In this document: positions 4,671 through 33,474 of the stretch, piece by piece
Position numbering within the stretch: the first letter of the stretch is position 1
Layout of the letters: every line of letters begins with the position of its first letter
IMG/VR virus record: IMGVR_UViG_3300034020_001270
Location: 1 to 39,625 of that record
Direction: 5' to 3' (one strand)
From: a virus
DNA length: 39,625 nt
The notes under the pieces: generated by a model
What the model saw: the letters and a program-made list of their open reading frames with translations, nothing else
What the model was told of the DNA's origin: nothing
The model's database searches: none
Translations under genes and position numbers: made by a program

Positions 4671-4671
4671 A

Positions 4672-5730: not shown

Positions 5731-5750
5731 AACCGAACAGGTATTCTTTT

Positions 5751-5795: not shown

Positions 5796-5823
5796 CAGCG
5801 GGTTGGGGGTTATTCGAGGCGCG

Positions 5824-5863
5824 ACCGCACTGATCGTGTTTTTTGCGATCAGTGCGGTTTTTT
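5824..5863 (+). terminator. Intrinsic terminator beside attP
   Basis: A perfect 13-bp stem (ACCGCACTGATCG / CGATCAGTGCGGT) with a 9-base loop is followed by a run of T on the + strand. It could block rightward transcription leaving or entering the att site. Confidence 0.85.
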
Positions 5864-7620: not shown

Positions 7621-7880
7621 CGCAGGTGGAGTTGATGTTTGCCTTGCGGCATCGGTTGAAGCTGGTGACGGAGCGGTGGGAATATGCCAGGGCCTACCAG
7701 TATGCGATTGAGCAGGAGCCATACGACCACCAACGGGAGGTGGAACATTGGATGAAGCAGGGGGCAGAGAGTGAGTTGCGGAGCGAGATGGAGTTTTTGC
7801 AGAGTGTGATTGGGGATCTGGAGAAGGGTGGCGGGGTGACTGGGGAGTGGTCGGCGATGGCGGCGCATTTGTTGAAGTAG
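7617..7880 (+). CDS. Small early coiled-coil protein B
   Basis: An 87-aa paralogue of the preceding protein, again starting in an ATGA overlap. It shares the plan of an N-terminal helix (MFALRHRLKLVTERWEYARAYQYA), a short variable middle, and a C-terminal helix ELRSE-EFL-S-IGDLEKG. The extra middle and the GEWSAMAAHLLK tail make it longer. Unknown function. Confidence 0.72.
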   Translation: MTQVELMFALRHRLKLVTERWEYARAYQYAIEQEPYDHQREVEHWMKQGAESELRSEMEFLQSVIGDLEKGGGVTGEWSAMAAHLLK

Positions 7881-8001
7881 GTCCCAGGGGGCGCTAACTT
7901 GTGGTGGTTCGACTAGCTCACCAACCGTTGGCGGCCACTGGGAGCAGTCAGGCGGGCTGGCTGTTCGATTTTTCTACTTTTATACGAGAGGGAGGTTTGT
8001 G
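7881..8001. other. Intergenic leader; first of two related leaders
   Basis: No gene is seen. The last 45 bases (GGCTGGCTG, T-rich run, ACGAGAGGGAGG) resemble the leader before 8217, so the two following small genes share a duplicated 5' region. Confidence 0.5.
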
Positions 8002-8166
8002 ATGACGACTGGGATGTATCGGATGTATCGGGCGGATGGGTTGGCGTTGCGGGTGTTGGCGGCGCTGTTGGTGATGATGTTGGCGGTGTATAGCTGTGAT
8101 GAGAGTGGGAATGATTACAGCGACCATGCGCGGACGGCTGACCGGGCGGAACGGACGTTGCGATAA
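8002..8166 (+). CDS. Small single-pass membrane protein or lipoprotein
   Basis: A 54-aa frame with GGGAGG ahead of the ATG. Residues about 14-31 (LALRVLAALLVMMLAVYS) are hydrophobic and followed by Cys-Asp, which could be an imperfect lipobox; the rest is charged and would face outward. It shares its leader with the next gene. No family recognised. Confidence 0.62.
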   Translation: MTTGMYRMYRADGLALRVLAALLVMMLAVYSCDESGNDYSDHARTADRAERTLR

Positions 8167-8216
8167 CGGGGTGGCTGGCGGTTTTGGTTTTTTGTTCAGA
8201 CGAGAGGGAGGTTGTG

Positions 8217-8444
8217 ATGGCGACGGCATTGATGTATGTGGGGCCACGGGTTGATCCGGTGGTGGTGGTGGTGCAGGCGTTGTTGTGGGCGCTGCTGTTG
8301 GTGGCGGGGCTGCTGGTGGCCGTGATGGTGGCGCCGGTGGTGTGGGCGGCGGTGGCGGCGCTGGTGGGCAAGCTGCTGATCGGGGCGGCGGTGGTTGGGG
8401 CGTATGCGGTGGTCTTGCGGCCAAAGGGGAAGGTACATGCGTAA
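8217..8444 (+). CDS. Small membrane protein, two helices
   Basis: A 75-aa protein with GGGAGG upstream. Two hydrophobic stretches (about 14-42 and 43-66, very rich in Val/Ala/Leu) with a short basic tail (RPKGKVHA). A holin-like size and layout, but it lies in the early region far from the cell-wall hydrolase, so that reading is weak. It overlaps the next gene by eight bases. Confidence 0.66.
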   Translation: MATALMYVGPRVDPVVVVVQALLWALLLVAGLLVAVMVAPVVWAAVAALVGKLLIGAAVVGAYAVVLRPKGKVHA

Positions 8445-8745
8445 GTGGTTGGTGGTTGGGCTGTTGGCGATGGTGTATGTGTGGGTGTCGTTGACGGCGG
8501 AGGTGCATAGCGAGGGGGCGTTTTTGCCGGTGGTGATGCAGCCGACGCCGGCGCAGAGCGAGGGGGTGTTTTTGCCGGTGGTGATGCAGCCGACGCCAAC
8601 GGCGGCGCCCACACCGCCGTTGGAAATGTCGGCGACGCGGTGGGTGAGTCCGTTGGCGACGCCGGCGCCGTGGTGGGTGAGTCCGTTGGCGACGCCGGCG
8701 CCGTGGTGGGTGAGTCCGTTGGCGACGCCGGTGGCGCAACCATAG
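8437..8745 (+). CDS. Secreted repeat protein with FLPVVMQPTP and WVSPLATPAPW repeats
   Basis: A 102-aa protein with a signal-like N-terminus (MRKWLVVGLLAMVYVWVSLTA). Then come two copies of SEG-x-FLPVVMQPTP, a Thr/Pro/Ala linker, and three copies of WVSPLATPAP ending VAQP. The longer upstream extension of this frame overlaps the previous gene fully and was rejected; ATG 8437 lies just inside that gene's end, which suits coupled translation. The FLPVV-PTP style resembles cell-surface linkers and the YLPLI-TP region of the Excalibur protein. Probably displayed on the host surface; function unknown. Confidence 0.68.
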   Translation: MRKWLVVGLLAMVYVWVSLTAEVHSEGAFLPVVMQPTPAQSEGVFLPVVMQPTPTAAPTPPLEMSATRWVSPLATPAPWWVSPLATPAPWWVSPLATPVAQP

Positions 8746-8891: not shown

Positions 8892-10118
8892 ATGAGAGAG
8901 AAGCAGGGTAGGCAGATGATCGAGTTGAGCGGTAGGCCAAACGGCGGGGTCGAGGTGATCACCGAGGCAGAGGAACAAGGGTATGCGTTGGTGTTGCCGG
9001 GAAGGACGCCGGCGCCACACTTTGCGGCGGTGTGGGGCGGGGCTTATGAGGGGGCAGAGGAGGGGCTGCGCCGGGTGTGGGATCGGCTGCGCGATGCGTG
9101 GTTGAAGACGAAGGAAGCGAAGAGCGGCAGTGCGCACACCCGGCGGAGTTATGAGTTTGCGACGGCGGAATGGCTTGATTTTCTGGCTACCCTGCGACAT
9201 GGGGACGGGCGGACGGTGAAGGCGTGGGAGGCGACGGCGGATCATGTACGGGAGTGGCAGTATGTGTTGTTGGAGGAGCGGGGGTTGTCGGGCAGTTCGG
9301 TGAATCAGCGGTTGGCGGCTTGCTCCAGTTACTACTCCTTTGTGATTCGGGAGAAGGGGTTGGTGGATGGGGTGGAGATTTCGGCCTTTATGGATCGGAC
9401 GGGGAAGACGCGCGAGAATCCGTTTTCGGGTGGGAATGTGCAGCGGGTGCGGACGAAGCAGTATGGCCATGCGCGGGTGCTGACGCACGCGGAGACGAAC
9501 CGGTTGATCACTTATCTGGACCAGCATAAGGGGACGCTGACGGGGGCGCGCAATTATGCGCTGATTATCACTTATTTGATGACGGGCTACCGGAATCATG
9601 AGGGGGTGAGTATGAAGTGGGGGGCGATTCGGCCCAACCGGAAGCAGCCAGGGGCTTTTGTTTTTGAGTGGCAGGGGAAGGGGGGGAAGAGCCAGAATGA
9701 TCCGTTGCCGCCACGGGTTTATCATGCGATTGTGCATTATTTGAAGGTGAGTGGGCGGTTCCCGGCAGAGATGGGGGCGGAGGAGTATATCTTTGTGCCG
9801 TTGGTGACACACAATGTGACGAATCTGCGGAATGTGAAGGAGGTGAGCGGGCATTTGAGTGAGAAGAGTGCGGTGCGGATTTTGCGGACGGCGCTGGCGA
9901 AGGCGGGGGTGAGTGACCCGGAGGGGGTGCGGTTGCATGATCTGCGCCACACCTTTGCGCACCGGTATCGCCAGGGGAATGGGGATTTGGAGGCGCTGCG
10001 GGAGCGCCTCCATCACGAGAGTTTGGCGACGACAGGGATTTATGCTCGGGAAGTTCTGGACGATCCGGTGGACGATTATTCGGAGTCGTTGTTTCAGAAT
10101 TTGCGGTTTGAGTTTTAG
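8892..10118 (+). CDS. Tyrosine recombinase 2
   Basis: A 408-aa tyrosine recombinase unrelated in detail to integrase 1. The first 75 residues are extra, then a core-binding domain (about 76-170) and a catalytic domain (190-390). Active-site residues visible are R234 (TGYRNHEG), K263/K266 (QGKGGKSQ), H349 and R352 (LHDLRHTFA), H375 (LHHESLATT) and Y384. All are present, so it should be active. No tRNA-like att core lies beside it. It stands alone between host-type repeats and a terminator, as if a separate cassette. It could resolve dimers of the circular genome, invert or integrate at another site, or be a captured element. Confidence 0.9.
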   Translation: MREKQGRQMIELSGRPNGGVEVITEAEEQGYALVLPGRTPAPHFAAVWGGAYEGAEEGLRRVWDRLRDAWLKTKEAKSGSAHTRRSYEFATAEWLDFLATLRHGDGRTVKAWEATADHVREWQYVLLEERGLSGSSVNQRLAACSSYYSFVIREKGLVDGVEISAFMDRTGKTRENPFSGGNVQRVRTKQYGHARVLTHAETNRLITYLDQHKGTLTGARNYALIITYLMTGYRNHEGVSMKWGAIRPNRKQPGAFVFEWQGKGGKSQNDPLPPRVYHAIVHYLKVSGRFPAEMGAEEYIFVPLVTHNVTNLRNVKEVSGHLSEKSAVRILRTALAKAGVSDPEGVRLHDLRHTFAHRYRQGNGDLEALRERLHHESLATTGIYAREVLDDPVDDYSESLFQNLRFEF

Positions 10119-10191
10119 CAGATGGCACGTTGCGGGCGGGCCGGCTGCGTCCTATCGCCGACCTCATGATACCGCAATTTTCTACTGGTGT

Positions 10192-10224
10192 AAAGCATTT
10201 GGTGTAGTTTCGCCATGCTTTTTT
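10192..10224 (+). terminator. Intrinsic terminator after recombinase 2
   Basis: AAAGCAT and ATGCTTT form the base of a stem with an inner GGTG/CGCC pairing, followed by a run of T. It separates the recombinase from the replication genes. Confidence 0.65.
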
Positions 10225-10243
10225 CTTACATAGGACATACGAG

Positions 10244-10450
10244 ATGGCTTACCAACCAAGGGTAGGGAAGACGCGCTGGCGGCGCTTGGTGGCGGAGCAG
10301 CAGCAACGCAATCGGGAGATGATTGTGGATTTGGAGCGGCTGTTGACGACGGCGCCGACGACGGAGGTGCGTAACGCGATTCTTCGGATGATCATTGCAG
10401 CCCAGGCGAACCTGTTGGATTTGGCAGAGTTGGCGACGATAGATGGTTAA
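10244..10450 (+). CDS. Small basic helical protein
   Basis: A 68-aa protein that opens the replication operon. N-terminal half strongly basic (RVGKTRWRRLVAEQQQRNR), then helical MIVDLERLLTTAPTTEVRNAILRMIIAAQANLLDLAEL. The layout suits a small DNA-binding or coiled-coil protein. No family recognised. Confidence 0.65.
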   Translation: MAYQPRVGKTRWRRLVAEQQQRNREMIVDLERLLTTAPTTEVRNAILRMIIAAQANLLDLAELATIDG

Positions 10451-10461
10451 AGGGGGGCGTG

Positions 10462-10704
10462 ATGATTGAGCAGGAGATGGTGGATGGGCGGGTGGCGTTG
10501 GTGGTGGAGCTGGGGCTGACGATGATGGCCTTTGGGCGGTGGCGACGGGTGCCGGTGGTGGGTGAGCAGCCGGCGGGAAAGTGGCTGTTTGAGCAGCGAC
10601 TGTATTGGGTGAATGGCGATGGGATGTTTCATAGTGGGCCGTTTGCCAGCATGGACGAGGGGTTGACATTTTTGGTGAAGTGGCATGGACGAGCGCTTGA
10701 TTGA
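10462..10704 (+). CDS. Small protein of unknown function
   Basis: An 80-aa protein starting at ATG 10462 with a run of G four bases upstream; a GTG one codon earlier is also possible. It reads as a compact alpha/beta domain with aromatic residues (KWLFEQRLYWVNGDGMFHSGPFASMDEGLTFLVKW). Its end overlaps the next gene by 20 bases. No family recognised. Confidence 0.65.
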   Translation: MIEQEMVDGRVALVVELGLTMMAFGRWRRVPVVGEQPAGKWLFEQRLYWVNGDGMFHSGPFASMDEGLTFLVKWHGRALD

Positions 10705-14420: not shown

Positions 14421-14891
14421 ATGGGAGGCAAGCGGAAGCGGTTATTGAATCGGGATGAGTTGCGGGGGGTGTTGTTGGCGATTAGTGATGAGCATTTGGC
14501 GGGGCGGTGGGCGCCGACGCTGTATGACTTTGACCGGTGGGTGCCGAAGGGGGTGAGTGATGGGCGGCGGCACATGAGCCGGTTGGCGATTGTGGGGGCG
14601 GCGGGGTGGCGGCGATTGGCGGAGGAGTTGACGGGGCGGGCCACCAAGTCGCGCAGTTTGGAGGCGCAGGAGCGGGTGGGGGCGGCGAAGGCGGTGCGGA
14701 AGACATGGCGGAAATCGTCCAGGCCGCTGGATGAGCCGGTGGGGCGGTTGCCGGCGAGTGAGTTGGTGACGGTGCTGGTGACGATGGGGGAGTGGCCGGT
14801 GATTGGGCGGTGGCGGGCGATGCGGGAGTGGGATCCGGTGCGGTTGGGGTATGTGGTGACGGGGGTTTATTCGACGTGGGAGGTGCGATGA
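14421..14891 (+). CDS. Basic hypothetical protein next to the origin
   Basis: A 156-aa protein starting MGGKRKRLLNRDELRG, with GCGAGGG upstream. It is rich in Arg and Trp. The segment LYDFDRWVPKGVSDGRRHMSRLAIVGAAGWRRLAEELTG resembles the helical DNA-binding repeats that accompany some homing-endonuclease-like proteins (a -W--L---G ending), but the match is weak. A second part LPASELVTVLVTMGEWPVIGRW may repeat that fold. The position suggests a DNA-binding role at the origin. The upstream in-frame extension runs into the iterons and was rejected. Confidence 0.62.
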   Translation: MGGKRKRLLNRDELRGVLLAISDEHLAGRWAPTLYDFDRWVPKGVSDGRRHMSRLAIVGAAGWRRLAEELTGRATKSRSLEAQERVGAAKAVRKTWRKSSRPLDEPVGRLPASELVTVLVTMGEWPVIGRWRAMREWDPVRLGYVVTGVYSTWEVR

Positions 14892-15124
14892 ATTGGTTGG
14901 TGGTGGTGGTGGCGGCGGGGGTGGCGTTGGGGGTGATGGTGATGGTGGTGGCGCTGGTGCAGGAGCGGGTGAACCAGCGGTTGGCGTCGGCGGAAAGGCG
15001 GTTGCGGTATCTGGAAGATAACGTGGTGTGGTCGGGTGATAATAAGGGATTATCGGTCGAGGGGCAGAAGCATAGGACTTATAGGATTGAGGGGAGGAAT
15101 GGGCGATGCAAGCGGGGTTTGTGA
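14888..15124 (+). CDS. Small membrane protein with coiled coil; C-terminus encoded by repeats
   Basis: A 78-aa frame overlapping the previous gene by four bases (ATGA). Residues 3-24 are a membrane helix (WLVVVVAAGVALGVMVMVVALV), followed by a short coiled coil (ERVNQRLASAERRLRYLE). The last 30 residues (from SGDNKGLSVEGQ) are translated from palindrome copy 6 and a heptad repeat, and the stop lies inside the next gene. The ancestral protein probably ended earlier. Function unknown. Confidence 0.58.
   Translation: MNWLVVVVAAGVALGVMVMVVALVQERVNQRLASAERRLRYLEDNVVWSGDNKGLSVEGQKHRTYRIEGRNGRCKRGL
15033..15059. repeat. GATAA-N7-TTATC palindrome, copy 6
   Basis: Core 15038-15054, left arm TCGGGT, right arm GGTCGAGGGG. 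Followed by a heptad-type repeat (ATAGGACTTATAGGA). It lies within the 3' end of a small membrane protein gene, shortly before the next start. Confidence 0.78.
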
Positions 15125-15312
15125 CGATTCGGAGGAAGGGTTGCCGGTATCATGGGCGGCGGGGGATGATTCAGCAGATTGAACCAACGAATGAGTTTCG
15201 GGTGCATAATGGGCAGCCCTATGATCTGTTGCATATCAAGTTGGAGCGGGATGCGAAGGTAGTGCGGGTGCCGAGTTATTTTGTGCCGGAGTATGATGCG
15301 ACGGCGCATTGA
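15106..15312 (+). CDS. Small SH3-like protein of unknown function
   Basis: A 68-aa protein. The pattern GFVTIRRKGCRYHGRRGMIQQIEPTNEFRVHNG looks like a small beta-barrel with a turn at HGRRG, comparable to KOW/SH3-type folds, but no family can be named. GGAGG is found at 15093-15097, with GGGCG closer to the ATG. Confidence 0.6.
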   Translation: MQAGFVTIRRKGCRYHGRRGMIQQIEPTNEFRVHNGQPYDLLHIKLERDAKVVRVPSYFVPEYDATAH

Positions 15313-15540
15313 TGAATGGCCAGTGAAAGGGGGTGATGGCTGGGAATTGATAATTGAAGATTGAGGATTGGTGATGGGTGGGTGTTTTGCGGCGCCACCC
15401 ATCACCCTGACCGCTGGGGCCGGTAAAGGATGGCCAGCGGCTGATTGGTGATTATACACCATGACGCCTTCCAGCGGATGTTTTTACAACCGTTGGGGGG
15501 CGTTTTGTTTTCGCCCTCCGGGATGAATGAGGAGGGTTTG
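15313..15540. other. Intergenic region with strong hairpin 15370-15406
   Basis: No gene is supported. A perfect 12-bp inverted repeat (GGTGATGGGTGG / CCACCCATCACC) with a 13-base loop lies at 15370-15406 without a U-tract, preceded by an AT-rich repeat-like run (AATTGATAATTGAAGATTGAGGATTG). ATGGCCAG occurs at 15316 and 15429. It could be a remnant of a host-type intergenic repeat. Confidence 0.5.
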
Positions 15541-15867
15541 ATGAAGGGGTTTTTGGGGTTTCATACGGTGAAGGTGGTTTTGGCGTTGGTGGGGGCGGAC
15601 TGGGGCTTTCAGACGACGGCGCAGGCGATGCAGAAGGGGCGGTGTTGGCGGCATCGGTTGCGGCATGTGTTGATGGTGGCGGCGTTGCAGGGGTTGTCAG
15701 CACGGACGGCGCGGGTGAGCTGGAATATGTGGGCGCTGTTTGTGGTGATTAATGGGGTGAGTCATTTTGTGATCGATTCGCTGCGGTTGGCGAAGTGGGT
15801 GGAGCAGGGGTTGCATGTGGCGGTGGCGGTGGTGACGGCGCCGTTGGTGAAGGAAGGGGGGCGGTGA
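15541..15867 (+). CDS. DUF3307-like membrane protein
   Basis: A 108-aa protein with AGGAGGG before ATG 15541. The pattern H-x(13)-DWGFQT, then K---W-HRLRHVL, then NGVSHFVIDSLRLAKWVEQGLHVAV matches the DUF3307 family of phage and bacterial membrane proteins, with its conserved FxxQ, His and HxxID-xK--xxxDQxxH residues. The family has no established function. It may sit in the inner membrane. The next gene starts inside its stop codon. Confidence 0.72.
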   Translation: MKGFLGFHTVKVVLALVGADWGFQTTAQAMQKGRCWRHRLRHVLMVAALQGLSARTARVSWNMWALFVVINGVSHFVIDSLRLAKWVEQGLHVAVAVVTAPLVKEGGR

Positions 15868-16133
15868 TGTTGAATGAGCATGTAATCATCATCGCAATGG
15901 CGCTGCTCATCTTCTGGCTGGCTTTCGGCGGCAAAGCGGGCCTGGTGGCGGCAATCCTCAGTGCAATTATGATGGTTGGAGCGTTACGCCATCCCGAAAT
16001 TGCCACAGGTAAACCGATGGCAGGCACGCAAGAGGAAAACTTACACGCAACGATGCTGCTAGTCGGTTTGATTCTCATTCCGCCGATGTTGTGGTTGTCT
16101 CTGAAACGATTGTTTAGAAGGGGTGGACAATGA
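15867..16133 (+). CDS. Small two-helix membrane protein
   Basis: An 88-aa protein starting one base inside the previous stop. Hydrophobic spans at about 5-35 and 60-80, with a basic tail (KRLFRRGGQ). From here to about 17.84 kb codons end in C more often and the G-rich strand bias weakens, so the block looks like a separate acquisition. No family recognised. Confidence 0.65.
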   Translation: MLNEHVIIIAMALLIFWLAFGGKAGLVAAILSAIMMVGALRHPEIATGKPMAGTQEENLHATMLLVGLILIPPMLWLSLKRLFRRGGQ

Positions 16134-16342
16134 ACGACTGGCAAGCAGAAATCAGGATTCTGGTTTACGGGGCAAACGACTGGCGGGGTAAATATGTCGC
16201 TTGTTTGTATGAGACTGAAGACTTGGCCGCCGCAGATGATGAGGCAATGAGGCGCGCCACTGGCAGTGGTGACACGCCACTGGAAGCGGCGGCGGCGCTG
16301 CTGAATTGCGCTGTTTCCGAAAGAAAGCGGTGGCAAAAATGA
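16130..16342 (+). CDS. Small soluble protein of unknown function
   Basis: A 70-aa protein overlapping its neighbours by four bases on both sides (ATGA). It reads as a small alpha/beta domain: an N-terminal strand pair (AEIRILVYGANDWRGKYVACLYE) and a helix with many Ala residues. It is the one non-membrane product of this block besides the 59-aa protein. No family recognised. Confidence 0.63.
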   Translation: MNDWQAEIRILVYGANDWRGKYVACLYETEDLAAADDEAMRRATGSGDTPLEAAAALLNCAVSERKRWQK

Positions 16343-16605
16343 TGTGGGCGCTTCTAATTTTCAGCCTGTGTTGCCTCGTCACCCCGTTCTTTGGGATCGG
16401 CGTGGCTGGGCTAATCGCCTGGGGGCTGTTGTCGCTGCTGTTCGGCGCTGCTGAACAGGGTGTCGAGCAAATGAGCGAAGCGGCGACCAGTGGCGACACC
16501 GGGCGCGCTGGCTGCTGGCTGTGGGCGGTTGGTGCGTTCGTTGCCGTTGGTGGTGCGGTTGTGCTGCTGGTGGCGCTGAGTGTTGCAGGAGGGTTGCGGC
16601 CATGA
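16339..16605 (+). CDS. Small membrane protein
   Basis: An 88-aa protein with two hydrophobic spans, residues about 3-36 and 60-84, separated by a short polar linker (EQMSEAATSGDTGRAG). It starts in an ATGA overlap. No family recognised; part of a run of small membrane proteins. Confidence 0.65.
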   Translation: MMWALLIFSLCCLVTPFFGIGVAGLIAWGLLSLLFGAAEQGVEQMSEAATSGDTGRAGCWLWAVGAFVAVGGAVVLLVALSVAGGLRP

Positions 16606-16892
16606 ATACATTGCTGATTATTTTAATGGGGATCATGTTGGCGCTACTGAATCCGTTGTTGCTGCTGGCAATGCCACTAATCCTGTGGGGCGTCAATAGC
16701 GCAGATCGGACGGAGAGCGCTGTTAGCAATGCCACAGGGAGCGGAGCGGCCGGCGGGTGTGTTGGTGGCATTGTTTTTGTCTTTTGCCTGATTGTTTTCT
16801 CGTTGGTTGGGCTGGCGTTGTTCGCTATGGCTATTGAGGGTAGCGATTGCCCCACGGCGCTGATCAATCAGGTGATGGGGCGGTGTCCATGA
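16602..16892 (+). CDS. Small membrane protein
   Basis: A 96-aa protein with an N-terminal span (about 3-32), a Ser/Gly-rich linker and a second span (about 52-80). ATGA overlap with the previous gene. The alternation of two spans and a polar linker copies the plan of its upstream neighbour, so they may be distant duplicates. Confidence 0.65.
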   Translation: MNTLLIILMGIMLALLNPLLLLAMPLILWGVNSADRTESAVSNATGSGAAGGCVGGIVFVFCLIVFSLVGLALFAMAIEGSDCPTALINQVMGRCP

Positions 16893-17008
16893 TACACGAT
16901 TCAAAGAGCATCATCGTTGCGCTGTGCATCGCCGGGGCCTTGTTCCTGGCTGGCTGGGGGTTCATCATCTACGGGTTGACGATGGCGACGGAGGGCTTAT
17001 GGTCATAA
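16889..17008 (+). CDS. 39-aa single-pass membrane peptide
   Basis: A 39-aa frame (MIHDSKSIIV start) joined by an ATGA overlap to the gene before and overlapping the next start by ten bases. Residues 8-31 form one membrane helix. Its place in an unbroken chain of overlapping genes supports translation. Confidence 0.58.
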   Translation: MIHDSKSIIVALCIAGALFLAGWGFIIYGLTMATEGLWS

Positions 17009-17178
17009 CAATCACTGTTCCGGCGCAAACGGTCTACATGCACGGCAACGCTCACCACTTGAGCCGCACCGGGTGTAACCGGTTGTTGGCGTGGCTTTTC
17101 GGTAATGCGGAGTTGATTAGGGGTTGGGACTATGGTGAGTATGTTTTCCGTGTGGAGGTGGATCGTGCAGAAGGTTAA
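16999..17178 (+). CDS. Small soluble protein of unknown function
   Basis: A 59-aa protein starting within the end of the preceding peptide gene. It has a beta-like N-terminus (MVITITVPAQTVYMHG) and an alpha/beta remainder with GWDYGEYVFRVEVDRAEG at the end. Longer versions of this frame begin inside the preceding gene without a ribosome binding site. No family recognised. Confidence 0.55.
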   Translation: MVITITVPAQTVYMHGNAHHLSRTGCNRLLAWLFGNAELIRGWDYGEYVFRVEVDRAEG

Positions 17179-17641
17179 AGAGCAGACACAAAACCGCTAT
17201 AACGGACTTGAGAACTTTGTCCAACCGGGGCAGACGACGGCCATGACCCGGCGACCACGAATTGAGGTGTTGCCGCCAGCGGAGACGACACACAGGCTTG
17301 ATGTGCCGATGCAGGCGACACAGCATATTGAGATGAAGACAAGCGCGGTTGACCGGAGTAAGGGGTTTTTGATTGCCAACGTGCCATTGTTCGGGGCGTT
17401 TGCGCTGGGCGTGTGGCTATTGTCGGGCCTGGTGACAACCACACCGCTATTTAGCTTCTTGGGGCTGTGCATCCTGTGGTCTTCGTTTGTGCTGGCCTGG
17501 CTGGCGTCCTACTGGTACACGTTGCGGGTGAGCGCTGAGGGGATCGCTATGTACGAGGCGAAAAGTAAATGGGGTGTGATTCAGGAAGAGCAGCGGCGCC
17601 GGTGGCAACACTATGATCGGCTTATCGAAGGGGAGGAATAG
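17132..17641 (+). CDS. Membrane protein with two helices
   Basis: A 169-aa protein from ATG 17132; a GTG at 17165 has a better Shine-Dalgarno (GGAGG, 6-base spacer) and would shorten the overlap with the upstream gene, so it may be the true start. The N-terminal 75 residues are soluble, two helices follow (about 82-102 and 108-128), and the tail is charged (EEQRRRWQHYDRLIEGEE). Probably a membrane-anchored cytoplasmic domain. Function unknown. Confidence 0.65.
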   Translation: MVSMFSVWRWIVQKVKEQTQNRYNGLENFVQPGQTTAMTRRPRIEVLPPAETTHRLDVPMQATQHIEMKTSAVDRSKGFLIANVPLFGAFALGVWLLSGLVTTTPLFSFLGLCILWSSFVLAWLASYWYTLRVSAEGIAMYEAKSKWGVIQEEQRRRWQHYDRLIEGEE

Positions 17642-17842
17642 ATGGACACTGTGATTGCGCTGCTTGCTATCGCACTAGTCGCGCACATGGTTAAGCCGCC
17701 GTTTCGCAGTAGGGCCATGCGCACAGACGGCAATATGTTTGCTGGCCTGGTGGCGGCGGTAATCTTCTTGGCGCTTTCCCTGATCAACCTGGGGGCAACG
17801 GTAGCGGCTGTAATCATGATGGGGGTGAGCCTATGGAACTGA
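17642..17842 (+). CDS. Small two-helix membrane protein
   Basis: A 66-aa protein with GGGGAGGAA before its ATG. Spans at about 3-18 and 34-62 joined by a basic segment (RSRAMRTDG). It closes the block of small membrane genes and overlaps the next gene by ten bases. Confidence 0.65.
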   Translation: MDTVIALLAIALVAHMVKPPFRSRAMRTDGNMFAGLVAAVIFLALSLINLGATVAAVIMMGVSLWN

Positions 17843-18393
17843 CACAACTGATTGAACGGACGCAGGATGTACGCCAGGCGTTGCCGGGGCCGAGTGTGAA
17901 ACAGCGGTTGGCGCAGGCGGCGGCGGAGTTGAGCCATGCGGGGGAGAATCAGATGCGGGTGGAGTTGTTGAATGAGGCGACGCTGGCGTTGGTGCGGGTG
18001 TTGTATGAGGTTGACCCGGATGGGGTGCCGGCGAATCTGGATCGGCGGACGTTTCGGTTGTTGGTGCCGGCGCCGTGGGGCCGGGCGGGTTGGCGGAAGT
18101 GGGGGTTGCGGTATTGGGAGAGTGAGATTTTCAAGCGGATTTTGCAGGTGCGGTGTCAGGTTAGAAGGGGGGCGCCGTTGTTTGATTACAATGAGGCGGC
18201 GCGGACGTGGCATTTGAATTGGGCTGATTATCCGCGGTTGGATCTGGCGCTGATGTATTGGAAGCAGCAGCCGATTACGTTGAAGGAGTGGCGGTTGCAC
18301 GCGGATGTTTATCGGATGCGTGCGTATGAGCGGATGAACAGACACCGGCATGATGCCGGGGGCGAGGGGGATAGCGAAGACGGCACGATGTGA
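17833..18393 (+). CDS. Hypothetical soluble protein
   Basis: A 186-aa protein, returning to the G/T-rich codon style of the phage. It is helical at the N-terminus, then has a Trp/Arg-rich middle (APWGRAGWRKWGLRYWESEIFKRILQVRCQVRRG) and an acidic, Gly-rich end. No catalytic motif is visible. It ends the operon that starts at 15541. Confidence 0.6.
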   Translation: MELTQLIERTQDVRQALPGPSVKQRLAQAAAELSHAGENQMRVELLNEATLALVRVLYEVDPDGVPANLDRRTFRLLVPAPWGRAGWRKWGLRYWESEIFKRILQVRCQVRRGAPLFDYNEAARTWHLNWADYPRLDLALMYWKQQPITLKEWRLHADVYRMRAYERMNRHRHDAGGEGDSEDGTM

Positions 18394-18584
18394 GCGTGAA
18401 ATGAGAGCGAAGTTAGCACGATGCGAGAGCGATGGGTGAGCGATGGGTGGGGGAAGTGTGTCATAGGGTGTAGCTCAGGGTATCGCGAACCAGAGGTAGG
18501 AATTGGGTGGGGTGATAATTCTCTATTATCACTCCACCTTGGATGGGACAAATAGGACAGATACGAGAGATAGGATGGGGGGGT
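18394..18584. other. Intergenic region with palindrome and heptad repeats
   Basis: No gene. It contains short runs of GCGA/GAGC repeats near 18395-18440, palindrome copy 7, then a heptad-type run (ATGGGACAAATAGGACAGAT style) at 18543-18580 that ends in a purine-rich stretch before the next ATG. Confidence 0.55.
18509..18535. repeat. GATAA-N7-TTATC palindrome, copy 7
   Basis: Core 18514-18530. Arms are unusually long: GGTGGGGTGATAAT against ATTATCACTCCACC with one mismatch. It precedes the Toprim gene. Confidence 0.8.
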
Positions 18585-19481
18585 ATGCCTAAGATTTCAT
18601 ATATCGAAAAGCAGTTCAAGGTTGATTCGTTGGCGTTGATCGAGCGGTGCAATGCGGTGATCGTGGACTATCAACGGCAAGGGTTTTCCCTCACTTTGCG
18701 GCAGCTTTATTATCAGATGGTGAGTCGGAATATTATTGAGAACACGGAGCGCAGTTACAAGCGGCTTGGTGATCTGGTTAGCAATGCGCGGTTGGCGGGG
18801 CTGATTGATTGGAATGCGATTGAGGACCGTGGGCGGAATTTGCGCCAGAATGGGCATTGGTCAACGCCGGCTGAGATTATTCGGTCGGCGCGGCGCAGTT
18901 ATCGGGTTGACAAGTGGGAGGGGCAGCGCTACCGGCCGGAAGTGTGGATCGAGAAGCAGGCGTTAGAGGGGGTGATTGCGGGGGTGTGTAGTCGCTTGGA
19001 TGTGCCGTATTTTGCGTGCAAGGGCTATAACTCGCAGTCAGAGCAGTGGGGGGCGGGGCAACGGTTGCGGGGGTATATGCAGGCTGGGTATGAGCCGATT
19101 ATTTTTCACTTAGGCGACCATGACCCTTCGGGGATTGATATGACCAGGGATAACCGGGATCGGCTTGAGATGTTTATGGGGGGCGTCGAGTTGCGACGGT
19201 TGGCGCTCAATATGAGCCAGATTGATGAGTATCAGCCGCCACCCAACCCGGCGAAAGAGTCGGATTCGCGCTTTGCTTCTTATATCGAGTTGTATGGTGA
19301 TGAGAGTTGGGAATTGGATGCGCTGGAGCCGCAGGTGCTGGTTGGCTTGATCGAAAGCGCCGTTCTAGGGATTCGGGATAATGAGCCGTATGAACGGATG
19401 GTGGCGTTGGAGAATGAGGGGATTCGCTTGCTGCAAACAGTCGAAAGCCACTGGGATGCGGTGGTGGAATATTTGGGGTGA
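18585..19481 (+). CDS. Toprim protein resembling Topo VI-A/Spo11
   Basis: A 298-aa protein. Residues about 33-60 (GFSLTLRQLYYQMVSRNIIEN) match the winged-helix segment of Topo VI-A/Spo11 that holds the DNA-cleaving tyrosine (R-x-x-YY; here Y42/Y43). Residues about 118-185 match the Toprim part: VWIEKQAL (E123) and HLGDHDPSGIDM (D178, D180, D185), close to the D-x-DP-GI-I motif of that family. No B-subunit ATPase gene is seen, so it would act alone or with a host partner. Possible roles are DNA nicking, replication priming/resolution or anti-plasmid defence. Family assignment is from recalled motifs. Confidence 0.72.
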   Translation: MPKISYIEKQFKVDSLALIERCNAVIVDYQRQGFSLTLRQLYYQMVSRNIIENTERSYKRLGDLVSNARLAGLIDWNAIEDRGRNLRQNGHWSTPAEIIRSARRSYRVDKWEGQRYRPEVWIEKQALEGVIAGVCSRLDVPYFACKGYNSQSEQWGAGQRLRGYMQAGYEPIIFHLGDHDPSGIDMTRDNRDRLEMFMGGVELRRLALNMSQIDEYQPPPNPAKESDSRFASYIELYGDESWELDALEPQVLVGLIESAVLGIRDNEPYERMVALENEGIRLLQTVESHWDAVVEYLG

Positions 19482-19641: not shown

Positions 19642-19671
19642 CCGACAATAACCGCACGGGTGTGCTATAAT
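19642..19671 (+). promoter_or_regulatory. Extended -10 promoter ahead of packaging genes
   Basis: TGC-TATAAT (extended -10; TATAAT at 19666-19671) with CCGACA 18 bases upstream. The -10 context GGTGTGCTATAATGGGGG is nearly the same as at 23098-23116, so the two promoters are probably related. The start would fall at about 19678, inside the stem of the terminator that follows. Confidence 0.65.
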
Positions 19672-19673
19672 GG

Positions 19674-19725
19674 GGGGTGTGCGGCGAGGGGGAGGGGTGA
19701 TGCGAGGGCCGCACACCCCTTTTTT
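19674..19725 (+). terminator. Intrinsic terminator just after the promoter
   Basis: A perfect 12-bp stem (GGGGTGTGCGGC / GCCGCACACCCC) with a 22-base loop followed by TTTTTT. It would end transcripts from upstream genes. Transcripts from the promoter at 19642 would stop after about 48 nt unless antiterminated. Confidence 0.82.
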
Positions 19726-19823
19726 GTTGGAGCGCATGATTTACCATTTATTTACGATTATATATATGTTGGCGACGACGGGTTTTGGGTGTGGTTGGTT
19801 GCGGGACTGGCCACACCCACCTT

Positions 19824-19878: not shown

Positions 19879-20610
19879 ATGGATATGGTGGGGAAGTTGC
19901 GGGTGTTGGTGGTGGCGCCGGCGCATTCGGATCTGCCGAATGTGGCGGCGGAGGTGGCGGCGGTGGCGGGGCATCATGAGGCGGTGGTGTTGCCGGGGGT
20001 GGTGCGGGATCGGGATATTGCGGCGGCGATTGAGGCGGGGCCGTATGATGTGGTGTGGTTTGCGTCGCATGGGAGTTCGCAGGGGATTTTGTTGAGTGAT
20101 GGGCTGCTGAGTATTGATGGGGTGGGGCAGTATGTGCGGACGGCGGCGGCGGGGTTGTGTGTGCTGAATTCGTGCGAGAGTGAGGAGGTGGCGTTGGCGA
20201 TTATGGCGACGACGCACGCTGATACGATTTGCACGATTGCCGAGGTGCAGGATCGGGATGCGAGCCGATTGGCGATCCTGCTGGCCAGGGAGTTGGCGCG
20301 CACGCCGGATTATCAGGAAGCTTATGAGTTGGTGCGGCCGGCGAGCGGGAAATATCGGTATTACCGGGCGGGGGATGGGGCGTATCGTAGCCGGGATCGG
20401 GATCGGGAGCGTGAGGGGGAATGGCAGGAGTTGCTGGTATCGGTCTATGAGCTACGATCCGATGTCCGGGTGATGCGGACGTGGTTGACGGTGATTCTGT
20501 TTGGGCTGGCGCTGGTGGTGGCGGTGGAGGTGGCGCTGTGGGTCTATACGGGGAGCATTGCGCGGGAGTTGGCGTCGTATGCGAATGAATTGGAGCGGCT
20601 AGCGCGCTGA
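19879..20610 (+). CDS. CHAT/caspase-like peptidase with C-terminal membrane anchor
   Basis: A 243-aa protein. Residues about 7-150 show the caspase-fold pattern of CHAT peptidases: a first strand LRVLVVAPA, then YDVVWFASHGSSQGILLSDG with the catalytic His64, then GLCVLNSCESEEVA with the catalytic Cys99. A basic linker (RSRDRDRERE) leads to one membrane helix at about 202-223 and a short helical tail. CHAT proteins usually belong to bacterial conflict and signalling systems. A membrane-tethered, single-gene version in a phage between a promoter-terminator unit and the terminase genes is unusual. It could act in superinfection exclusion, lysis timing, host-protein cleavage or abortive response. 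The substrate cannot be read from sequence. Confidence 0.82.
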   Translation: MDMVGKLRVLVVAPAHSDLPNVAAEVAAVAGHHEAVVLPGVVRDRDIAAAIEAGPYDVVWFASHGSSQGILLSDGLLSIDGVGQYVRTAAAGLCVLNSCESEEVALAIMATTHADTICTIAEVQDRDASRLAILLARELARTPDYQEAYELVRPASGKYRYYRAGDGAYRSRDRDREREGEWQELLVSVYELRSDVRVMRTWLTVILFGLALVVAVEVALWVYTGSIARELASYANELERLAR

Positions 20611-20646: not shown

Positions 20647-21309
20647 ATGGGCCGGAAGGATGGAAACTCCGAATTTTCCGGTTTTACGGCGCCAGGCAAT
20701 GCGCCGGGGCAAGCGGAGAGCCGGGTGAGTAAGGAGCGGCTGGAGGGGTTGTTGGCGGCGCGGCGGGCGTTGCCGGAGCCTTCGTTTGCAGAGGCGACGC
20801 CGGAACCGGTGGCATGGGAGGCGCTCTATCGGGATTTGTTGGAGGAGCGGACGGCGGATGGGAAGTTGCGGTGGGACTGGCGGAAGGCGCTGTATATTGC
20901 GTGGTCTTGCGTGCCGACTGGGCAGCGCTGGCCAAAGTATGAATATGAGTTGGCCAGCGATTTTTTGGGGTTGACCAACACGCGCACGATCCGCGAGTGG
21001 AAGTTGAAAGACCCGGAGATTGAGGAGCGGATTGCGGCGGGGCCGAAGCGGTTGTTGTTGGGCCATGTGGCGAATGTGTTGGAAGCGCTGGTGTTGGTGG
21101 CCACCCAAGCGGATGCGAAGTCGCACCCGGACAGAAAGTTATTTTTGGAACTGACGGGGCAGTATAAGCCGGCGGGCAAGGTCGAGCTAACGGGCGAGGG
21201 TGGCGGGCCGATTGATGTGCGCGAGGTGGGGGAGTTGAGTGACGAAGAGTTGGAGCGTATTGCCACAGGACGCGGCTCAGGAGTTATTAAACAGGCGCAA
21301 CGCACGTAA
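20647..21309 (+). CDS. terS: Terminase small subunit
   Basis: A 220-aa protein directly upstream of, and overlapping by 71 bases, the large terminase gene. The middle (about 80-135) is helix-turn-helix-like: WRKALYIAWSCVPTGQRWPKYEYELASDFLGLTNTRTIREWKLKDPEIEERI, the DNA-recognition part of small terminases. The end VRELGELSDEELERIA-type pattern (here VREVGELSDEELERIATG) is typical of small subunits that contact the large one. It would recognise the packaging site. Circular permutation of the assembly suits headful packaging, but cos packaging is not excluded. Confidence 0.83.
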   Translation: MGRKDGNSEFSGFTAPGNAPGQAESRVSKERLEGLLAARRALPEPSFAEATPEPVAWEALYRDLLEERTADGKLRWDWRKALYIAWSCVPTGQRWPKYEYELASDFLGLTNTRTIREWKLKDPEIEERIAAGPKRLLLGHVANVLEALVLVATQADAKSHPDRKLFLELTGQYKPAGKVELTGEGGGPIDVREVGELSDEELERIATGRGSGVIKQAQRT

Positions 21310-22765
21310 AGGGCTGCTGGCCTTTACTCAATATACCTATCCCCAATATCAGGCTGACCTGGTGCATGGGTTGATTGCGGGGCATTTGGATCGGGTGGTG
21401 GCGGGGGAGATCCGGCGCTTGATGATCTTTGCGCCGCCACAACATGGGAAGAGTGAGTTAACCTCAGTACGGTTGCCGGCTTATTGGTTGGGGCGCCGGC
21501 CGAATGACCCAATTATTATTACAAGTTATGGGGCTGAGCTGGCGGAGAGTAAGAGCCGGCAGGCGCGGGATATTGTGGAGAGTGGCGAGTATCGGGCGCT
21601 CTTTGGTGATCTGCGGGCGGGTGAGATTGAGTCGGTGCAGGTGCGGCCGGATAGCCGGGCGGTGCAGCGCTGGCAGTTGATGCACCCCAACCGAGGGCGG
21701 GTTCTCGCCGTCGGCGTGGGTGGGCCGGTGACGGGGCATGGTGCGCTGCTGGGGATTATTGATGACCCACATGAGAATTGGGAAGAAGCGCAGAGCGCGA
21801 CGATGCGCCGGCGGGTGTGGGAGTGGTATCGGGGGACATTCCGCACGCGCATTTGGGAGGGCGGGGCGATTGTGCTGATCATGACCCGGTGGCATGAGGA
21901 TGATCTGGCGGGGAAGTTGTTGAAGGAACAGCCAGGGCAATGGACGGTGTTGCGGTTGCCGGCGATTGCAGAGAGCCAGGAAGAGCGGGATAACAATAAT
22001 CGGTTGATGGGGTTGCCGCTGGGGGAGCCTGATCCGTTGGGGCGGGCGGCAGGGGAGGCGGTGGCGCCGAAGCGCTACAGTGCGACGGAGTTGCAGAGCA
22101 TTGCCAAGGACGTGGGGAGTATGGTCTTTGGGGCGGAGTATCAGGGCAGCCCACGGGCGACGGAGGGCAATCTGATTAAGCGGCCCTGGTTGCGGATTGT
22201 GACTCAAGCGGCGCCGGCGACGCCTTACCGGATTCGTTATTGGGATAAGGCGGCGAGTGTGAGTAAGAGCGCCAAATTCAGTGCCGGGGTACGGCTGGCG
22301 ATTGCGCTGGATGGGCGGGTGGTGATTGAGGATGTGGTGCATGGGCAGTGGACAACCAAGGAGCGACGCAACGTGATGTTGCAGACGGCCCAGTTGGATG
22401 CGGCGGCGTTTAACAATGGGGTCTTTGTGTTTATTGAGCAGGAGCCGGGGTCGAGCGGCGTGGATAGTGTGCAGGATGAGATTGCGTTGCTGGCTGGTTA
22501 CCCGGTCTTTGCGGACAAGGCGACGGGTGATAAGGATGTGCGGTTGATGCCGTTTATTGCGCAGGCTGAGGCGCTGAATGTGGTGTTGCTGCAAGGGGCG
22601 TGGAACCAGGTCTATATTGATGAGATGGTGGTGGTTCCCAATGGGACGTATCGCGACCAGGTGGATGCAACGGCGGGTGCCTATAATCGGGCGATTGAGT
22701 TGGTGCGGACGCCGCCGGCGAGAACCGTGGTACATGAGGAGTTTGTTTCGATTTCGCAATTCTGA
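21239..22765 (+). CDS. terL: Terminase large subunit
   Basis: A 508-aa packaging motor. ATPase: Walker A variant APPQHGKS at 65-72, Walker B LLGIIDDP with D175/D176, coupling motif MTRWHEDD at 215-222. Nuclease: YWDKAA with D336 in an RNase H-like fold, VFIEQEPGSSG with E400/E402, and a further acidic cluster GDKDVR. This is the family described as putative large terminase with a C-terminal nuclease domain. The GTG at 21239 overlaps the small subunit gene; a TTG about seven codons on is an alternative. Translation is probably coupled. Confidence 0.93.
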   Translation: MTKSWSVLPQDAAQELLNRRNARKGLLAFTQYTYPQYQADLVHGLIAGHLDRVVAGEIRRLMIFAPPQHGKSELTSVRLPAYWLGRRPNDPIIITSYGAELAESKSRQARDIVESGEYRALFGDLRAGEIESVQVRPDSRAVQRWQLMHPNRGRVLAVGVGGPVTGHGALLGIIDDPHENWEEAQSATMRRRVWEWYRGTFRTRIWEGGAIVLIMTRWHEDDLAGKLLKEQPGQWTVLRLPAIAESQEERDNNNRLMGLPLGEPDPLGRAAGEAVAPKRYSATELQSIAKDVGSMVFGAEYQGSPRATEGNLIKRPWLRIVTQAAPATPYRIRYWDKAASVSKSAKFSAGVRLAIALDGRVVIEDVVHGQWTTKERRNVMLQTAQLDAAAFNNGVFVFIEQEPGSSGVDSVQDEIALLAGYPVFADKATGDKDVRLMPFIAQAEALNVVLLQGAWNQVYIDEMVVVPNGTYRDQVDATAGAYNRAIELVRTPPARTVVHEEFVSISQF

Positions 22766-23082: not shown

Positions 23083-23111
23083 TTGACAGGGGGCGATAGG
23101 TGTGCTATACT
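23083..23111 (+). promoter_or_regulatory. Late promoter (extended -10)
   Basis: TTGACA at 23083-23088, 17-base spacer, TATACT at 23106-23111 with TGC before it. Strong match to sigma70 consensus, so probably constitutive. It is the only good promoter seen before the long lysis-head-tail block. Confidence 0.82.
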
Positions 23112-23117
23112 GGGGGC

Positions 23118-23231
23118 TGCTGATTCCTCTGGTTGTGAATTGAAGAGACGGGTGGTGGTTGCCGGCCATTGCCCACGAACGCCGTAAGAGCGTCATTGAC
23201 CTGGTTTGCCAGGTTGGTGGCGCTCTTTTTA
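23118..23231 (+). ncRNA. Late leader RNA ending in terminator (6S-like arrangement)
   Basis: From the predicted start near 23118 to the terminator U-tract is about 114 nt with no supported gene. A strong promoter, a short leader and an intrinsic terminator before the late genes copies the lambda pR'-6S RNA-tR' layout, where an antiterminator lets polymerase pass. No Q-like gene is recognised here, so regulation is inference. It could equally be a stand-alone small RNA. Confidence 0.55.
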
Positions 23232-23247: not shown

Positions 23248-23880
23248 ATGGCGCGGTTATCCCAAGGTGCGGAATTTATGAAGTTGCAGATCCAGCCGAT
23301 TGATCCGCCGGCTGGGTTCGGGAAGTATGTGGTGAAGGATATTTTTACCACAGCGGATGGATCGTGGGATATGAATGGGACGATCTTCTCCATCACATCG
23401 TGGGCGCGTAATGGGTATCTGAAGCCGATGGGGTCGCCGGATTATTTTGATGACGCCGGCGGGGCGACGCATTTGTTTGCGCGGGTGGAGGATGAGAACG
23501 GGCGGGCGAAGGCGCTGGATGTGCGCTTTTTTACGGGCAATCTGGCTGTTGCGGAGAATACAGGGCAGAAGAAGAGCGGCTGGGCCAATATGTTTATGAA
23601 TGGCGATTCGGCCTTTTATATCGAGCAAGGGCAGCGGGGGCCGTGGTCGGCGATTCCGCTGGTGCCTTATGCGGAGGCGGTGACGGGGTTGGGGTTGCCG
23701 AATCGATGGCATGTTTCGACGTTTGTGGTGTGGAAGTGGCAGCCGGCCCAAGTGGTGACACCGCCGATTGATCCGCCAGTTGAGCCGCCGGTGGGTGGTG
23801 ACGTGGAAAAACGCCTGGCGTGGTGCGAGCGGGAGATTCGCCAGTTGAAAGGGTTGTTGAAACAGTGGACGGGGGAATGA
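23248..23880 (+). CDS. Hypothetical late protein with Pro-rich linker
   Basis: A 210-aa protein, first of the late block; GGGAG lies six bases before its ATG. Residues about 11-165 form a beta-rich domain (FTTADGSWDMNGTIFSITSWARNGYLKP, HLFARVEDENGRAKALDVRFFTG). It is followed by a Pro-rich linker (PPIDPPVEPPVGG) and a short C-terminal helix. A globular domain on a linker suits a carbohydrate- or wall-binding partner of the adjacent hydrolase, which starts within its stop codon. That role is inference. Confidence 0.62.
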   Translation: MARLSQGAEFMKLQIQPIDPPAGFGKYVVKDIFTTADGSWDMNGTIFSITSWARNGYLKPMGSPDYFDDAGGATHLFARVEDENGRAKALDVRFFTGNLAVAENTGQKKSGWANMFMNGDSAFYIEQGQRGPWSAIPLVPYAEAVTGLGLPNRWHVSTFVVWKWQPAQVVTPPIDPPVEPPVGGDVEKRLAWCEREIRQLKGLLKQWTGE

Positions 23881-24263
23881 GCGCCGCCGGGCATGAACGC
23901 CTGGCGGCGTTGGATGATACGCAGTTGCTGGCGCTGTGCATTTGGGGTGAGGCACGGGGAGAATCGGTGACGGGGCAATTGGCGGTGGCGCATGTGGTGT
24001 TGAATCGGGCGGCGAGTCCGCGTTGGTGGGGGCATGATGTGCGGTCGGTGATCTTGAAGAAATGGCAGTTTTCGTACTTCAATAGTCGGTCGCCGGGGCC
24101 GGGGTTGGTGCAGTTGGCGATTGCGGAGTTGGCCATGGGGAAGTTGACGCTTGATCCGACGTTGGGGGCGACGCATTATCATGCGGTAGGGGTGACGCCG
24201 GATTGGACGCGGTTGCTGCGGCATGTGGTGGATATCGGGCGGCATCGGTTTTATGTGGAGTAG
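23877..24263 (+). CDS. Cell-wall hydrolase (endolysin, SleB/Hydrolase_2 type)
   Basis: A 128-aa enzyme. LALCIWGEARGES-GQLAVAHVVLNRA, QFSYFN and ATHYHAVGVTPDWTRLLRHVVDIGRHRFY match the Hydrolase_2 family of peptidoglycan-cleaving enzymes (SleB-type lytic transglycosylase/amidase), with the conserved E in WGEARGE as the catalytic residue. It has no signal peptide, so release would need a holin. ATG 23877 overlaps the preceding stop by four bases; a longer frame upstream lies within that gene. The following 54-aa membrane protein is the holin candidate. Confidence 0.88.
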   Translation: MSAAGHERLAALDDTQLLALCIWGEARGESVTGQLAVAHVVLNRAASPRWWGHDVRSVILKKWQFSYFNSRSPGPGLVQLAIAELAMGKLTLDPTLGATHYHAVGVTPDWTRLLRHVVDIGRHRFYVE

Positions 24264-32231: not shown

Positions 32232-32266
32232 GGATCGAATAGGATGGATGGGATGGATATTGGGAA
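32232..32266. repeat. Heptad-type intergenic repeat
   Basis: ATAGGATCGAATAGGATGGATGGGATGGAT: short heptad-like units just upstream of the major capsid gene. Confidence 0.5.
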
Positions 32267-32280
32267 GAAGGGGAGATGGT

Positions 32281-33474
32281 ATGAGTGAGATGTATGGGGT
32301 GTTGAGTGAAGGTGGGCTGCGTGGGTTCACGCGCCATCGTAGCCAGAAGCGGCAGGCGGCGGTGTCCAGTGCGGCGGCGCTGTGGGCGGATTTGATGGCG
32401 GGGCGGGCGCCCAGCTATTTCTTGCAGGAGGCATTGGCGCCGCGGACGCCGGCGGTGGCGCGGGCGATTGAGGGCAGTTATCCGGGGCTGTTTCAGTTCC
32501 AGGAGGCGATGACGCGCAGTGATTTCCCGTTGCTGACGGGGGATGTGATCGACCGGATGATGTTGGCGCGCTATCGTGAGTTTCCTTCGCCGTGGCGGTC
32601 GTTTTGCAAGGTTTCTAATACGCTGCGAGATTTCCGCACGGTGCGCCGGATTGCCATGGACGGGGCCGAAAGCGTGTGGCAGACCCAGGGCGAGACGGAG
32701 GAGTTGGAATACACCCAGGTGAGCGAGACGGGGTATACGTATGCGCCACAGAAATACAGCCGCGGCGCCCGGATTTCGTTTGAGGCGTTGATGAATGATG
32801 ATCTGGATGCGTTTACGTCGATTCCGGATCGGCTGGGGCGTGGTGGGGCGCGCACGGTGGCGCGGTTTGCGACTGGGCTTTATGTGGATGCGAGCGGGCC
32901 ACACGCGTCGCTCTATACGGCGGGGAATGGCAACCGGGTTACGTCTAATCCGCCGTTGAGCGTGGCGGGGTTGGGGACGGCGTTCAACCTGCTGGGGGGC
33001 TTTGTGGATGCGGGGGGCGATCCGATCTACGTTGAGGAGGCGATCCTGGTGATTCCTCCCCAGTTGCGGGTGACGGCGAACAACATCTTAAATCAGTTGA
33101 GCGTTGATGTGACGGCGAGCGGTGGCACGGCGGCGCAGACGGTGCGGGTGAACAATTGGATTGTGGGGAATTTGGAGTTGGTGGTTGATCCGTACATTCC
33201 GATTGTGGCCAGCACGGCGAACGGACAGCAAAGCTGGTTCCTTTTTGCCGATCCAAGTGTGGGGCGGCCGGCGCTGGAGGTTGGTTTCCTTTCCGGGTTC
33301 AATGAGCCGCAACTCTATCAGAAGGCGGGCAATACGATGCGCCTGGGGGGCGGGATGGATGAGATGGCAGGGGATTTCTCGACCATGAGCCAGGAGTATA
33401 AGGGGGTGGTGGCGTTCGGTGGGACGCGCCTGGACCCGAAGAGCACGGTGGGGAGTAACGGGACGAATAGTTAG
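32281..33474 (+). CDS. Major capsid protein (Mu gpT-like, HK97 fold)
   Basis: A 397-aa protein, starting after GGGGAGA. The pattern PGLFQFQEAMTRSDFPLLTGDVIDRMMLARYREFPSPWRSFCKV, followed by RTVRRIAMDGAESVWQTQGETEELEYTQVSETGYTYAPQKYSRGARISFEALMNDDLDAFTSIPDRLGRGGARTVARFA, is characteristic of the gpT-like major head subunit with the HK97 fold: E-loop region rich in E/Y then the spine helix. It ends with the VAFGGTRLDPK strand. It is the main shell protein and would be a target for the preceding protease. Confidence 0.9.
   Translation: MSEMYGVLSEGGLRGFTRHRSQKRQAAVSSAAALWADLMAGRAPSYFLQEALAPRTPAVARAIEGSYPGLFQFQEAMTRSDFPLLTGDVIDRMMLARYREFPSPWRSFCKVSNTLRDFRTVRRIAMDGAESVWQTQGETEELEYTQVSETGYTYAPQKYSRGARISFEALMNDDLDAFTSIPDRLGRGGARTVARFATGLYVDASGPHASLYTAGNGNRVTSNPPLSVAGLGTAFNLLGGFVDAGGDPIYVEEAILVIPPQLRVTANNILNQLSVDVTASGGTAAQTVRVNNWIVGNLELVVDPYIPIVASTANGQQSWFLFADPSVGRPALEVGFLSGFNEPQLYQKAGNTMRLGGGMDEMAGDFSTMSQEYKGVVAFGGTRLDPKSTVGSNGTNS

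Follow-up and report, generated by a model that had tools for sequence, protein, structure and literature searches.

A predicted membrane-anchored CHAT protease carried as accessory cargo at two sites in phage genomes

Directly in front of the terminase genes of the viral genome analysed here (the window, 39,625 nucleotides in full), a gene on the plus strand (19879..20610; ATG start) encodes a protein of 243 aa that almost certainly has a CHAT fold and is very probably anchored in the membrane. The gene was delimited by its open reading frame, a Pfam CHAT match and homologues, and we consider its product likely to be an active protease. Phages themselves carry this stripped-down, apparently membrane-anchored CHAT protein as cargo; its presumed active site is kept across distantly related phages, and its gene occupies two unrelated sites.

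A short CHAT domain with a coiled and hydrophobic tail

The CHAT/caspase-like identity, proposed in an earlier sequence-only reading, was borne out by Pfam, an AlphaFold2 model and Foldseek matches. Over residues 17-102, the match to Pfam CHAT (PF12770) scored 34.3 bits (cut-off 24; E 2.3e-8). Among the related contigs, designated here by L and a number, the homologues in L006, L029, L097, L098, L099 and L105 also scored above the cut-off, and that of L009 scored below it (19.9). Only positions 101-201 of the Pfam model were matched by the window protein, and 112-256 by L105. Judged by its alignment to this model, the window protein is a short form of the CHAT domain family, in which the first hundred model positions are unmatched.

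The AlphaFold2 model had a mean pLDDT of 82.5, with higher values in the CHAT part (83-92 in most 10-residue blocks). Its strand order is caspase-like, starting with a strand (residues 8-14), a helix (22-32), a strand (34-40), a helix (44-52) and a strand (58-62) after which the histidine follows. The model continues with a hairpin (69-78), a helix (79-89), a strand with the cysteine at its end (93-100), a helix (102-112), a strand (115-119), a helix (125-141) and a strand (159-162). The CHAT domain was delimited to residues 8-165 (19900..20373, plus strand) and is followed by a long helix (167-242). When the model was compared with solved structures using Foldseek, the SAVED-CHAT structure 8tl0 ranked first (E 6.5e-9), followed by legumain, caspase-6 and separase. 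A second AlphaFold2 model, that of the distant member in L097, also retrieved 8tl0 first, with gingipain R next, and the family sequence profile reached 8tl0 at E 2.4e-5 with His and Cys aligned. Structure prediction, a check suggested together with the earlier reading, therefore found a caspase fold with 8tl0 as the best solved match. The viral structure library BFVD yielded one clear full-length match, the unnamed 264-aa protein A0A1P8DJ94 (E 2.9e-13, TM 0.61/0.56, 22% identity), which on the strength of this model comparison is probably another viral member.

NCBIfam gave no match to the window protein, nor did PADLOC 2.0.0, which covers known systems only, at E values up to 10. The only PHROGs match of the CHAT protein, to a tail sheath at E 0.51, was disregarded, and glutamate-receptor matches in a PDB sequence search were judged to be chance. 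A prohead (head maturation) protease was also discarded, as the CHAT protein has no head-protease match and the head protease/major head protein is encoded by a separate gene (32248-33474).

The presumed catalytic residues are His64, in SHG (codon at 20068..20070, plus strand), and Cys99, in NSCES (codon at 20173..20175, plus strand), the latter aligning with the Cys of NAC in 8tl0. Both had been singled out from the sequence alone; their positions were confirmed in the open reading frame, and the conservation set as a check on the earlier reading held, both residues being invariant in all ten aligned homologues. This alignment comprised nine contigs of distinct sequence plus L100, a near-duplicate of L099, and had 33 invariant columns, including H64, G65, N97, C99 and S101. 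In the closest comparable group, dN/dS was 0.08-0.10 in the CHAT part vs 0.11-0.26 in the tail, so that both parts are under selection, with the tail changing faster. Since independent homologues at 31-47% identity retain the dyad and the CHAT part is under purifying selection, a chance open reading frame was ruled out.

Downstream of the CHAT domain, a charged helix with coiled-coil character (residues 167-203; 20377..20487, plus strand) forms the first part of the long model helix, and the family profile matches GCN4-type coiled coils. It leads into a predicted transmembrane helix (residues 204-222; 20488..20544, plus strand), whose mean Kyte-Doolittle hydropathy of 2.51 over 19 residues agrees with the C-terminal membrane helix of the earlier reading. 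By hydropathy, a coil followed by a hydrophobic C-terminus was found in nine of the ten aligned homologues: the window, L009 and L006 proteins have one hydrophobic segment in the tail, and those of the L097 group one or two, with none above the threshold in L105. Membership of the XhlA-type hemolysins/holins was ruled out for this tail, whose segments have no such Pfam match. No signal peptide was seen, and an Arg-rich stretch lies N-terminal of the helix; a cytoplasmic orientation is therefore expected for the CHAT domain.

Homologues, genomic sites and accessory distribution

Initial single-sequence searches with the window protein matched only one almost identical contig. Relatives reached via the terminase gene, L009 (47% identical) and L006 (35%), encode the same kind of protein before the gene for the small terminase subunit (TerS). 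Alignments of these first members led to a second group (L029/L101, L097, L098, L099/L100 and L102), and then to L105 and a broken copy in L104. The latter, at positions 9914-10500 of a 38-kb viral contig, has the N-terminal half with the His but lacks the Cys half, and its coil and transmembrane part is out of frame. Homologues were found only in viral contigs. A tblastn search of an isolate phages collection with the window, L029, L006 and L105 proteins retrieved none, and no match to the window protein was found in plasmids. The plasmid matches of the L006, L029 and L105 members were distant CHAT-like stretches in haloarchaea, Nostoc/Calothrix and Streptomyces. Two scans of genome contigs were also negative, although they used few seed patterns and so bear little on cellular genomes.

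A 123-bp direct terminal repeat makes the window look like a complete phage genome. It encodes two integrases and a repressor, suggesting that the phage is probably temperate. The two tyrosine integrases lie at 4672-5931 (minus strand) and 8892-10118 (plus strand), and L009 likewise has two, at 4116-5402 (minus strand) and 7251-8561 (plus strand).

The CHAT gene occupies two sites. The first, in front of the terminase genes, is used in the window, L009, L006 and L105, the last with a different terminase. In the window, the upstream neighbour is a gene annotated as 'DNA topoisomerase' by PHROG (18543-19481). Directly downstream lies the gene for TerS (20647..21309, plus strand), identified by its place before the gene for the large subunit (TerL), a weak PHROG match and its clustering with the small-terminase genes of other carriers; TerL itself follows at 21239..22765 (plus strand; PHROG 38, E 1.3e-87). 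The second site, within the head-tail connector genes, is used in L029, L097, L098, L099 and L102. Here, the reading frames abut or overlap those of the head-tail genes in several carriers (TGATG in L097 and L102, ATGA in L029), from which it follows that the CHAT gene belongs to the late operon at this site. It is missing from the second site in 26 distinct relatives, which were found via the major head protein, have the same connector gene and extend at least 900 bases behind it.

The first site was also found with other content. In L005, whose TerL is 83% identical to that of the window, DNA homology upstream of TerS consists of a 25-bp promoter (88%), with nothing clear after it until homology resumes at the window TerS. 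Behind this conserved promoter, precisely where the CHAT gene would lie, L005 encodes a 128-aa protein with a coil and a transmembrane segment but no CHAT domain (L005:8986-9372). Its PHROG matches are all weak (phrog_6324, E 2e-4; hemolysin, E 0.046). A homology test of this gene against the CHAT tail found nothing, so that the two swapped genes have place and architecture in common but not sequence.

In an all-against-all comparison of eight carrier loci, CHAT was the sole gene common to all of them. The genes shared among some carriers were CHAT, terminase, neck/tail-completion and integrase genes. This agrees with the earlier description of the protein as a lone version, and a conserved partner gene was ruled out by the same comparison. 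Small membrane-protein reading frames overlap, with their starts, the end of the CHAT gene at L006:5022-5297 (91 aa) and at approximately 10827-11055 of L097 (~74 aa, also in L102); such neighbours are not conserved across carriers.

Given the two sites, the 26 relatives without the gene, the swap in L005, the broken copy in L104 and the absence of a shared partner in the loci compared, we are highly confident that the CHAT gene is an accessory 'moron', that is, cargo that different phages have acquired at permissive positions. With such a distribution, its product is probably used against other phages or against the host, and not as a structural component.

Promoter, hairpin and expression

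Upstream of the CHAT gene in the window, a sigma-70-like promoter (CCGACA-18-TATAAT with a TG extension, 10/12 matches; 19642..19671, plus strand) is followed by a hairpin of 13 pairs with a T-run (19673..19727, plus strand; -28.9 kcal/mol, z -4.0). This hairpin may be a terminator, an attenuator or a small RNA of roughly 50 nt. Rfam gave no match. The extended -10 motif TGTGCTATA(A/C)T is present at two positions in the window and at one each in L005 and L009. The L005 promoter (8757) is in the same place as that of the window, and a hairpin with a T-run but of different sequence separates it from the gene for the coil and transmembrane protein. In L009, the promoter reads straight into CHAT-TerS-TerL, the CHAT start being ~30 bases away without an intervening hairpin. 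Such a promoter precedes the CHAT gene in the window, where the hairpin intervenes, and in L009; the motif was not found at the connector-site copies. Comparison of these upstream regions indicates that the local promoter is conserved. At its end (positions 1-80), contig L105 opens with a long T-run that lies directly before its CHAT gene.

The promoter-terminator unit reported in the earlier reading is thus real, its promoter recurring in L005 and L009. The further claim that the protein would be made with the packaging genes stands in part. It is in line with the L009 arrangement, and no terminator was found between the CHAT gene of the window and the terminase, but in the window the strong T-run hairpin parts promoter and gene, which makes the timing there less certain.

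A second unit lies beyond TerL, at 23083-23230 of the window. Its extended -10 is the same (TTGACA-17-TATACT, TGTGCTATACTGGGGG), and visual inspection suggests a T-run hairpin ~75 bases on; folding of part of the unit was no better than that of shuffles.

Relation to known systems and possible functions

Known CHAT proteases are immune or cell-death effectors whose activation usually depends on a fused sensor or a partner complex: the fused switch is SAVED in SAVED-CHAT, and TPR, with Cas7-11, in Csx29. The window protein is a member of the CHAT family, but it is neither a SAVED-CHAT nor a TPR-CHAT protein and is not part of a known CHAT system. SAVED-CHAT (8tl0) shares the CHAT protease domain with it and is its best match both by fold and by profile. 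However, the window protein lacks the SAVED ligand-sensing domain (CHAT was the only Pfam family above its cut-off) and has a coil stalk and a predicted membrane helix instead; it is also phage-borne, with no CRISPR neighbours seen. The clan CD peptidases caspase, legumain, gingipain and separase resemble it in their core fold and in having His and Cys after consecutive strands, whereas its sequence family is CHAT and the TM-scores are only ~0.40-0.48. Csx29 (TPR-CHAT, Craspase) is also a His/Cys CHAT protease, whose dyad H615/C658 is needed for cleavage, and has the same C-E-S at the active cysteine (C658-E659-S660, corresponding to C99-E100-S101 in the window protein) (PMC10028731). Unlike Csx29, the window protein has no TPR repeats according to Pfam, no pseudo-caspase CHAT1 half and no Cas7-11 partner, and it is predicted to be membrane-anchored. 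Searches of open-licence papers retrieved no description of phage-encoded CHAT proteases, membrane-anchored ones included, which, with subscription papers outside their scope, is weak evidence of novelty.

We tentatively favour, at somewhat less than even chances, a role for the CHAT protein in conflict with another phage, most likely superinfection exclusion. The accessory status, the gene's own promoter and its swap with another gene for a coil and transmembrane protein tilt the balance towards a moron-type conflict role over lysis or processing. Exclusion in particular is favoured because it has precedents in position and logic. Tab, from JBD26, is a prophage-expressed defence moron that lies between the small and large terminase genes and has its own promoter (PMC10884400), a setting similar to that of the CHAT gene. 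SieA, an inner-membrane exclusion protein, and HK97 gp15, which blocks DNA injection (PMC10883804), are likewise products of accessory phage genes. None of these three is described as a protease in these papers, and their likeness to the CHAT protein is one of genome position, promoter or location, not of sequence. SNIPE provides a precedent for a catalytic effector tethered to the inner membrane and acting at phage genome injection (PMC13190303), but this membrane-bound protein is a nuclease of unrelated sequence and serves as an analogy only.

Under the exclusion hypothesis, the protein would be a minimal CHAT cysteine endopeptidase (His64/Cys99) on the cytoplasmic side of the inner membrane, attached by its C-terminal helix, with the coiled-coil stalk probably dimerising or oligomerising it. 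The anchor and stalk would replace the sensor or regulatory domain that is fused to the protease in known CHAT proteins. Control would then come from place and clustering, the stalk grouping CHAT copies on the inner membrane. The tether would keep the protease where an incoming phage delivers its DNA and pilot proteins, so that cutting a protein of the phage or of the host there would block or abort superinfection. We infer proteolytic activity, topology, oligomerisation, trigger, substrate and exclusion phenotype alike. If active, the protein would provide a compact system for studying the control of a caspase-like protease through membrane location and oligomerisation alone, and would bear on whether phages use proteolysis, beyond nucleases and receptor blocks, against competitors or to steer the host. 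A broader proposal, to which we give a little less than one chance in three, is that of a so far undescribed 'solo' family of caspase-like phage proteases that a coil stalk fixes to the inner membrane, without sensor or partner, and that would act as interchangeable cargo sensing and shutting down competing phages at the membrane.

Several points run against exclusion. The strong hairpin parts the window promoter from the CHAT gene, PADLOC, limited as it is to known systems, has no match, and the copies at the connector site should be expressed late, while an exclusion protein has to be made in the lysogen or early in infection. This late-operon position is the best argument against exclusion; it supports a late lysis or takeover role and keeps lysis and other late-stage roles alive. 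Made alongside the structural genes, the CHAT protease could act late in infection on a membrane or division protein of the host or the phage, its cleavage timing or helping lysis, a reading to which we assign roughly one chance in four. The overlapping start and stop codons at the connector site, the reading frames for small membrane proteins overlapping the CHAT end in L006 and L097/L102, and the content of the terminase site in relatives are all consistent with it: coil and transmembrane genes precede the terminase in L005 and L020, and holin-like genes do so in L021 and L024 (Phage_holin_4_1, E 0.008 and 4e-4, below the cut-off). However, the endolysin of the window (Cell Wall Hydrolase, 23820-24263) is encoded elsewhere, beyond TerL, the small membrane-protein neighbours vary among carriers, and most relatives have no CHAT gene and so must lyse without it.

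Slightly less probable still is counter-defence, in which the CHAT protease would cleave or titrate a host defence protein, such as a host CHAT protein or a CBASS or type III CRISPR component, at the membrane. The accessory distribution fits such a role, and a phage copy could share substrates with the immune CHAT proteases Csx29 (PMC10028731) and SAVED-CHAT, the latter acting in bacterial immunity as cited in PMC11417357. Yet the late-operon position at one of the sites would be late for this purpose, a membrane tether is not obviously needed for it, and no cognate substrate gene was seen nearby in the eight carrier loci.

We consider it improbable that the protease acts in signalling by cleaving a membrane-bound regulator or a protein of its own phage. 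The precedent is Craspase, which cuts Csx30, a sigma-factor inhibitor, at a single site (PMC10028731), and the window model has a weak Foldseek likeness to DdvA, described as a transmembrane anti-sigma factor (E 2e-3, TM-score 0.43). This likeness is at the fold level only, and no sigma or anti-sigma gene is common to the carriers. An inactive membrane scaffold, with the caspase fold kept and the activity lost, is marginally less probable again: pseudo-caspase domains do exist, as in CHAT1 of Csx29 (PMC10028731), but the dyad is invariant down to ~31% identity and purifying selection is strong.

Upstream of the topoisomerase gene, the window contains a run of small reading frames (14792-17842), which have no PHROG and no clear Pfam matches; the predicted products of several are membrane proteins. 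Part of this run (17132-17641 and 17833-18393) has its counterparts in L005 and L104.
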